Assembly (NCBI RefSeq): GCF_000003605.2
Contig: NW_003107597.1
Coordinates: 123,071 to 180,788, forward strand
Length of the DNA stretch: 57,718 bases
Reading direction: 5' to 3'
DNA from: Saccoglossus kowalevskii
Lineage: Eukaryota > Hemichordata > Enteropneusta > Harrimaniidae
Numbering within the stretch: position 1 is the stretch's first letter; each line of letters opens with the position of its first letter. The translations under genes were made by a program, and so were the position numbers. This document shows, in pieces, positions 17,959 to 49,558 of the stretch. The notes under the pieces are model-generated. The model did no database searches. It had not been told where the DNA came from and saw only the letters and a program-made list of their open reading frames with translations.

Positions 17959-20900
17959 ATGGCAGATATTAAAAACTTTCTCTATTCATGGTGTGGGAAG
18001 AAAAAAGTTGTACCACAATATGAATTCCGAAGTGCTGGATCCAAACATCGACAGAGATTCATGTGTGAAGTGAGTATACAAATAGTTTAATTTACATGTA
18101 TGTACACCAAACAGGGCAAGAAATTTCTGATACCAAGGCTATTATTTCGACAATTACTGATAGTACCCCACTGTACTGTACTGTATTTCCATTAATTCTG
18201 TAATGGTTACTTGTGTCATAAAATGAAAGAAATGTTGTAAATCATTAAATTGTGTGTTTAGGTACGTGTACAAGATTACGATTACATCGGTGTTGGTAAT
18301 TCTACGAGCAAGAAAGATGCCCAAGCAAACTGTGCAAGGGATTTTGTAAACTACCTCGTCAGAACTGGTAATTGCTTGGCGAGTGAGGTCCCACAAACTG
18401 GGGTATGTATTTTACAAAGTGATATTTGTTTTAAATTATGGTGATAGAGATCGCTGAAATTTGTACTTTAATTGATAGAATGTGAACTGCCCTTACACTA
18501 TGTTTCACAAAGACTGTGCAATGGGAGTATCTTTTTCTCTCAAGGATACATCATACATTTTGAGAATACCAAAATCCATAAAGTTTAAAACAGATTTAGC
18601 AAACTTCTTTGTGTGGGGTCCAATCAAACTTTGCACTGGGAGCTGCCATGTTTGTTTTTATTATTAGAGGATGCTTATGCGCGTAATTATCCCGTATTTG
18701 GAATTCGCATTTCCTAATATGGTAGAATGAAAATACCCAGTGCAATACCGCAAAATACGACGCTCTGTAACTTACGGTGTTACAGTGACAGATGTATGAT
18801 TATTCAGCGAGACATGTTATGACTTCAATTCAAATACTGATACTGTATTTGCTCTATTAGAAGTGCATGCAATTACCTACATGTCTTGTTAATATCAGTG
18901 TGAGGTTCGTGGATTTACAATTTTGGCTGACATGTGCCTCTGCTGGAGATGTGCTTCTAATAGATCAAATATAGTTTTCTTTTATTTACTACGTGTAGTT
19001 GCTCATGTCTGTTTCTATGACAGGCTAATCCATTACCAAGTGTATTAGAGACTGCTGGTGGTGCTGCATTGCCTGATGGAGCTGGTGTTCTGCCGTCTGG
19101 TGTGGCACCCCCTCCACATCAAAGCGCAAGTATTAGTATCGGTGAGTAATGCAACACATTCCACATACTGTAACGCTGCTGTCTTGCAAACATCATGAAA
19201 AGTGTATTATGAAAGATTTGATTTGATTTGATTTGATTTGATGAATTATACTTTTGTAGCACAAGCAGAATATGTCATTAATCCTGTATTACCTGGTAAG
19301 TAGCACGTGCACTAACATGAATGAGCGAAATGTGTGTCTATTGTTGAACAAAGTCATATTGTATTTATCTGGCATAGGTTGATTGCAATTTTTTGCTAAG
19401 TGCATTTCAATTAGAGATGTGCTTCTAATAGACCAAATACAGTAATCTTGTTGATAAAGTGTATATTATGTTTGGCTTGTTACAATTTTAATCTGAGATG
19501 TACAGTGTATACATGTGACTATGTCAGAACTACGACCACTGATGTGTAACAATATTGTTGTCTCAGTATGATGCAATTGTTTCATAGGACCTGGAGAAGG
19601 TACAGCTAGAATGTTGCCATCTTTATTTGATGCTAGTCAACCTGGTGGAGGAGAGGAGGGATTCAGACAGAAGTATTTTGATGCAGCTGGAGATCGTAAA
19701 AAGTTTAGGGGTAAGACGAATCTATATTTTGGGACACCAAAGCCATTATACACTGGGTGAGTGTGTCATAGAATCAATTGGAAAATCTTGATCAGATTTT
19801 TGGCCCTGGTTAGTGCAAAAATATTATGACAAATCATGATGCCATAATGATAGAAAGTTATTTCACACAGCCTGTTACTTTGAATGTGATTTCTGGCAAA
19901 AAACACTATGGTGCACCATTAGCACTTAAATTAGTAAAAGTATCAGGATAAAGCTGAGACATTAAATGGCACATAGTTTTAAAAATTTTCCTGGTATCTT
20001 ATAATAACTATCACACTGTAATGACAATACACAATTCTCAATAACTGCTAAATATTTTTAACAGAGTGAAAGTGTTGATTTGAATGCTGGTCTCCATGGC
20101 AACTGGACTTTTGACAATGCCAAATCTCGTTTACATCAGTTTATGCAGACAAATCGCATCAATGCGGAGTATAAATACACCACGGTTGGTCCGGATCACA
20201 ATAGGTAACGTTGGTAATAATTTTATCTATAAAAATCTCAAATAACCGCTAATTTGGCACAATTTGGTTAAATTTTCCTGAATACAGAATCAAAAGTTAG
20301 GGACCGTAATCACTGTTGTATGCATGCGTATTGCATGCATTATGTCTCGCCACTCCCCATTGTGCCAAATCCATGGCTTAGTTTGAGTGGGCAGCCAATC
20401 ACCAAATGTTTAAAAAAACTCTCTGATAAAGTCATAAACCCAGAGCACTTCATTTAGAACATCAACACTTTGAAAAGAAATAATGTTAAACAAATAAATT
20501 GTATCATAAACTATTATGTTTAGATAAAATGAGATGCACACAATTCAAAATTACAATTTGTCTGTAGGTTTAACTTTTATTATGTTTTTTTTTTTTTCAA
20601 TAAATTAATTGACTGGTCAGGTACTTTGTAAGACTAATTGTCTGGAATTTTGCTAAAAAAATCAGTGAACAGTAGTGTTAACTTCTATAAAATGTCATCG
20701 TCTTATATGTGCTGAAATCACTTTTAATCAGATTTAACAGTAATTAGAGAAATATTGGTAATACAGTTGTATGTAAACACCTATGTGAACTGAACTCATT
20801 TCTCAGTCCCTTTGGTGTTTAGCTGTTATTGTTGTGTATATCTTGAGATTAGTAGTACTACATGTTGTAAAGTTTCACCTCATAAAGTCACTGGGTTATT

Positions 20901-49116: not shown

Positions 49117-49558
49117 ATGGCGGTCGGAGAAATGATAGCTATGGGTAGGCTCCTGAAATTATCGCCGTTTTGCCCTGGAACAAACTATTTCTTAGCAACA
49201 CTTTTATTAACTGTACTCACTAACCATTTTAGTTTTGCTCAACAAAGTCGAAGCGCTTGTTACGATTCGCAAGGACGACCACAGCGTTGCATCGCCGAGT
49301 TTGTAAACGCCGCGTACGAAGTGAAGATAGAATCAACTAACACATGCGGCTATGATAGGACTTTATTCTGCCTCCAGACCGGCGTTACCGGTGCCACTAA
49401 GTCATGCGATGAATGCGTAGCCTCCGATCCAAATCTACGACACCCGCCTCGTTATATGACTGATTACAACAGTGACCAGAACACAACATGGTGGCAGAGC
49501 GAAACTATGTACGAGAATATTCAGTATCCACATTCAGTCAATTTAACGCTGCCGCTGG
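49117..49558 (+). CDS. LAMC1: Laminin subunit gamma, first coding exon (partial gene)
   Basis: ATG at 49117 has A at -3 and G at +4, a better context than the in-frame ATGs at 49132 and 49141. The exon ends in phase 1 at a gtgagt donor (49559). Residues 1-22 are a lead; about 23-41 form a hydrophobic signal segment ([18 protein letters not shown]) with likely cleavage after Ala41. From about 47 the laminin N-terminal (LN) domain begins: [57 protein letters not shown] and [12 protein letters not shown], segments that match gamma-type laminins (RPQRC / EFVNAA / CxQTGVTG / TDYN / TTWWQS / LTL). N-glycosylation sequons: NTT (about 122) and NLT (about 142). The product would be a secreted basement-membrane subunit assembling with alpha and beta chains. 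The rest lies beyond the right edge. Gamma identity is strong; the symbol is by homology. Confidence 0.92.

Follow-up and report, generated by a model that had tools for sequence, protein, structure and literature searches.

Irimia et al. reportedly described conserved blocks of microsynteny in animals in 2012. In the human genome, we take the order at 1q25.3 to be DHX9, SHCBP1L, LAMC1, and LAMC2, with DHX9 and LAMC1 on the same strand. This linkage is not universal, as the orthologues of DHX9 and laminin gamma presumably lie on different chromosomes in both Drosophila and C. elegans. For teleosts, passages of PMC9504374 place lamc1 in the same direction as dhx9 and describe a variable local order, in which lamc1 and lamc2 are found either in tandem or with dhx9 between them. 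More generally, microsynteny associated with coregulation or with regulatory blocks is an established class, as set out by Robert et al. (2022, PMC8851819); in a word search, "DHX9", "LAMC", and "laminin" were absent from the main text of that article. Among the matches listed in our search of the open-licence literature, we found no report of DHX9-LAMC1 linkage in an invertebrate.

Here, we describe a DHX9 gene followed by a laminin gamma gene in the hemichordate Saccoglossus kowalevskii. The window, that is, the whole stretch of 57,718 nucleotides analysed, corresponds to C211:123071-180788, and coordinates of this contig (C211) are used for features beyond it. The contig was also read outside the window, up to its end at 213527, and the profile search covered a genome of 572 Mb in 4,830 contigs. 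The window is flanked directly by runs of N, one of 5,662 N (C211:117409-123070) and another of 19,330 N (C211:180789-200118), and 13.4 kb of readable contig sequence remain 3' of the longer run. The preliminary description of the window reported DHX9 followed, after 7.3 kb and on the same strand, by the first exon of a laminin gamma gene, and our analysis bore out this arrangement with coordinates exact to the base. As in the conserved animal microsynteny blocks discussed in PMC8851819, unrelated neighbours have probably been kept together for a long time, in this case in a block of two genes.

The DHX9 gene

The coding region of DHX9 (RNA helicase A / MLE) occupies window positions 17959..41827 on the + strand, and the gene extends over 24 kb. 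It was delimited by matches to PDB chains and to Pfam dsrm, by its ORFs, and by its start and stop codons. The start codon (ATG) at 17959 coincides with residue 1 of chain 3vyy in the alignment, and the TGA stop codon is at 41825-41827. Because a likely splice acceptor lies immediately 5' of the ATG, the gene probably has a non-coding 5' exon further upstream. All 22 domain alignments to DHX9/MLE chains (PDB; 5, 1, 4, 7, and 5, with the best chain taken per search) keep the order of the protein on the + strand; three of them are individually weak (i-E 0.41, 0.02, and 0.035) and were accepted for their place in the series. From 5' to 3', they comprise the first double-stranded RNA-binding domain (dsRBD1, 17965-18081 and 18262-18396), the second (dsRBD2, 20056-20214 and 23078-23218), the linker before the helicase together with the first helicase match (25258-25362 and 26785-26916), and the helicase, HA2 to OB region (28110-40966). 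The gene also matches Pfam dsrm, and the last ORF, which ends at 41827, encodes a Gly-rich C terminus. An 82-base run of N (window 36637-36718) sits between two of the exons. There was no PDB match for residues ~82-148, 202-214, 260-319, and 355-375 of 8pjb, for the join after residue 419, or for residues 814-821 of chain 8szr.

The gene thus presents two N-terminal dsRNA-binding domains, a DEIH helicase core, an HA2/OB region, and a Gly-rich C terminus, as expected of DHX9/MLE. In the PDB search, DHX9 (E 7.3e-85) scored far ahead of DHX36 (7.6e-31) and DHX29 (2.5e-24), and therefore, as judged from its sequence, the helicase gene is a DHX9/MLE orthologue with a complete domain order. An additional argument, based on the fact that fly MLE outscores human DHX9 among the PDB chains, was dropped, as the human chain apparently lacks the first dsRBD and the comparison is unfair.

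The laminin gamma gene

Exon 1 of the laminin gamma gene (49117..49558, + strand) encodes the start of the protein, with a likely signal peptide and the first half of the LN domain. It opens with an ATG at 49117, remains open throughout, and is followed by a GTGAGT splice donor after 49558. It matches Pfam Laminin_N with an E-value of 3.2e-21, and its best PDB match is laminin gamma-1 (E 5.5e-38), with netrin-1 as the next-best molecule (4.1e-25). Within query residues 48-149, 58 of the 102 residues are identical to chain 9az3_G, as counted from the alignment midline. For the first half of the LN domain, the exon is therefore of the gamma type. Genome-wide, Laminin_N gave 10 matches, eight of which were examined as loci, one of them (L006) being exon 1 itself. 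None of the seven other loci compared with exon 1 appears to contain a second gamma-type exon, and two further matches lie outside this comparison. Of the seven, L001 is 40% identical to exon 1 over 127 residues and holds a whole LN domain in one exon, which suggests that it is netrin-like. L003 and L002 match exon 1 weakly and in part, and the same L002 stretch recurs in the flank of L008, while L004, L005, and L007 gave nothing at 1e-3.

The region downstream of exon 1 is presumably intron 1 of the gene (49559..57718, + strand). We found no Pfam match on its + strand, and the remainder of the LN domain was not detected in the readable 8.1 kb after the exon (49560-57718; no family in any of the three + strand frames). 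Laminin exons resume on the same strand 3' of the 19,330-base N run, at approximately C211:200296-212960. This locus (L011) contains two Laminin_B and five EGF_laminin stretches, distributed over two frames in the Pfam search. On the same strand, three stretches are colinear with the nidogen-binding fragment of gamma-1 (1klo, 1npe). The NIDPNAV-type motif binds nidogen, and in the present gene NIDSNAV replaces the NIDPNAV of the chain. Thus, the L4 (Laminin_B) domain and the LE repeats are present, including an LE repeat of the nidogen-binding type (NIDSNAV vs NIDPNAV in 1klo). Judged by eye alone, two further ORFs (C211:211710-211967 and 212694-212960) resemble the beginning of the coiled coil; they lie shortly before the end of the contig.

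These observations bear on whether exon 1 could be a lone pseudogene copy, or a netrin-like exon, that lies near DHX9 by chance. The failure to find the rest of the LN domain in the readable sequence downstream would fit such a copy, as would the position of netrin-1 as second among the matched molecules. However, the E-value of gamma-1 is about 13 orders of magnitude lower than that of netrin-1, the exon has an open frame that runs up to a splice donor, and it is followed on the same strand by exons for Laminin_B and EGF repeats and by the gamma-type NIDSNAV motif. We therefore reject this possibility, to which we assign a negligible probability. As laminin exons resume further along the contig without a change of strand, exon 1 is not a lone copy and, as far as sequence can tell, opens a genuine laminin gamma gene of the LAMC1 type. 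It had been suggested that extending the scaffold would reveal the rest of this gene, and the extension indeed recovered Laminin_B, the EGF repeats, and NIDSNAV on the same strand, with a join that crosses the N run. Given that the middle of the gene falls within this run, it may be only the scaffolding that links exon 1 to the later exons.

The spacer and its repeats

The spacer that separates the DHX9 stop codon from the laminin ATG (41828..49116) is 7.3 kb long, and Pfam searches of its + strand returned no family. On its - strand, the only family found was RVT_1, with a weak match at 43339..43674 in one of the three frames (E 1e-4; its 22.5 bits fall short of the curated cut-off, 29.6), which is probably a retrotransposon relic. 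A second spacer ORF (43938-44162) looks like a reverse transcriptase by eye. Comparisons within the contig also showed a self-repeat in the spacer close to the end of DHX9, as well as a 73-base match that is 84% identical to C211:133060-133132. In contrast to the human block, in which we take SHCBP1L to lie between DHX9 and LAMC1, no gene is found between the two by Pfam here.

An ORF in the presumed laminin intron (window 56320-56649) and another upstream of the window (C211:116840-117148) share a near-identical translated stretch, and because it occurs in these two places, it is probably a dispersed repeat.

Probable origin and retention of the pair

The order found here, with DHX9 upstream of the laminin gamma gene on the same strand, is likewise that of the vertebrate DHX9-(SHCBP1L)-LAMC1-LAMC2 block, as we assume it to be in human. 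For teleosts, the shared direction is indicated by passages of PMC9504374. If genes were placed in random order, the odds that a given gene would be the immediate 3' neighbour of another and share its strand would be around 1 in 40,000, a rough estimate based on about 20,000 genes. Shared descent is the likeliest explanation, because random placement would seldom bring the same two genes together in the same order and direction; thus, the pair described here likely shares descent with that of vertebrates. An independent joining of the two genes here and in vertebrates would be conceivable, as gene order changes readily over such spans of time and our comparison rests on one invertebrate genome. 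With a single invertebrate genome examined, it is by the low odds alone that independent joining is excluded. The adjoining TRPC-DHX9 pair, which presumably shows no such match, also speaks against it. Overall, we regard a coincidence of this kind as very improbable.

A more difficult question is why the pair has remained together. In our preferred reading, which we consider somewhat more probable than not, the ancestral neighbourhood would have held DHX9 and then laminin gamma, both this lineage and vertebrates would have inherited it, and the pair would have been retained mainly since local gene order breaks slowly, with neither gene needing the other. Alternatively, regulation might keep the pair together if putative laminin gamma enhancers were located in or near DHX9, so that breaks would be selected against and DHX9 would be a bystander. 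Such a constraint would be consistent with the roomy introns of DHX9, a gene spread over 24 kb, and with an order and strand that are the same as those we assume for human. It would also agree with the direction reported for teleosts in passages of PMC9504374, and PMC8851819 treats microsynteny through coregulation or regulatory blocks as an established class. Nevertheless, the spacer contains a likely retroelement relic, and, according to passages of PMC9504374, the local order of lamc1, lamc2, and dhx9 varies among teleosts. Regulation as the cause is thus unlikely in our estimation. The linkage has also presumably been lost in fly and worm, which likewise speaks against such a constraint.

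The preliminary description proposed an ancient microsyntenic block, perhaps kept by regulatory elements of one gene inside or near the other. The two genes are indeed linked, in the order and orientation of the vertebrate pair, but simple retention fits at least equally well, given the weak RVT_1 match, the lack of any + strand Pfam family in the spacer, and the variable order in fish. Even so, passive retention as the cause should be held less firmly than shared descent. It is quite improbable that DHX9 and LAMC1 form a two-gene block that is pan-bilaterian and hitherto undescribed, older than the bilaterian ancestor and kept by putative laminin gamma enhancers within DHX9. Nothing in the data shows a special function for the adjacency of the two genes. 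Should the same pair be found in further phyla, it would offer a small marker of ancestral gene order that can be scored with ease, as well as a simple two-gene test case for regulation versus inertia in old linkages. Alone, the present case adds one genome to a linkage that is already visible in vertebrates, and it is sound but modest.

Neighbouring genes

The resemblance to human 1q25 appears to be confined to these two genes. In human, LAMC2 presumably follows LAMC1; here, the contig ends inside the laminin gene. Upstream, ORFs of at least 85 aa were judged by eye, and ten were compared with Pfam and one with PDB in a non-exhaustive survey; five of the ten, including the ORF at window 2766-3194, matched no Pfam family at E <= 0.01. 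Exons of a TRPC-type channel were found on the + strand at C211:104699-105244 (L023), with a Pfam match to TRP_2, and at C211:115564-116337 (L024), where Ion_trans matches weakly, below the cut-off, and the best PDB match is TRPC4. The ORF at window 2766-3194 encodes an acidic tail and may be the C-terminal end of this TRPC-like gene. Between window positions 3200 and 13150, no Pfam family was found in any of the six frames (three per strand).

Further upstream, consecutive + strand exons match the Pfam families EF-hand (C211:41758-42171), FAD_binding_8 (C211:48668-48949, L017), and NAD_binding_6 (C211:50255-50608, L018), a domain set that suggests a NOX5-like gene. We take neither a TRPC-like nor a NOX5-like gene to be a neighbour of human 1q25, and these upstream neighbours thus differ from those of the human block. 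For this reason, only the DHX9-laminin pair is seen as shared, and, within our non-exhaustive look upstream, a wider 1q25-like block is unsupported. Finally, in C211:45908-47395, also part of L017, each of the three minus-strand frames carries long, repetitive ORFs in which Ser/Leu/Lys-rich units recur, evidently the mark of a tandem DNA repeat.
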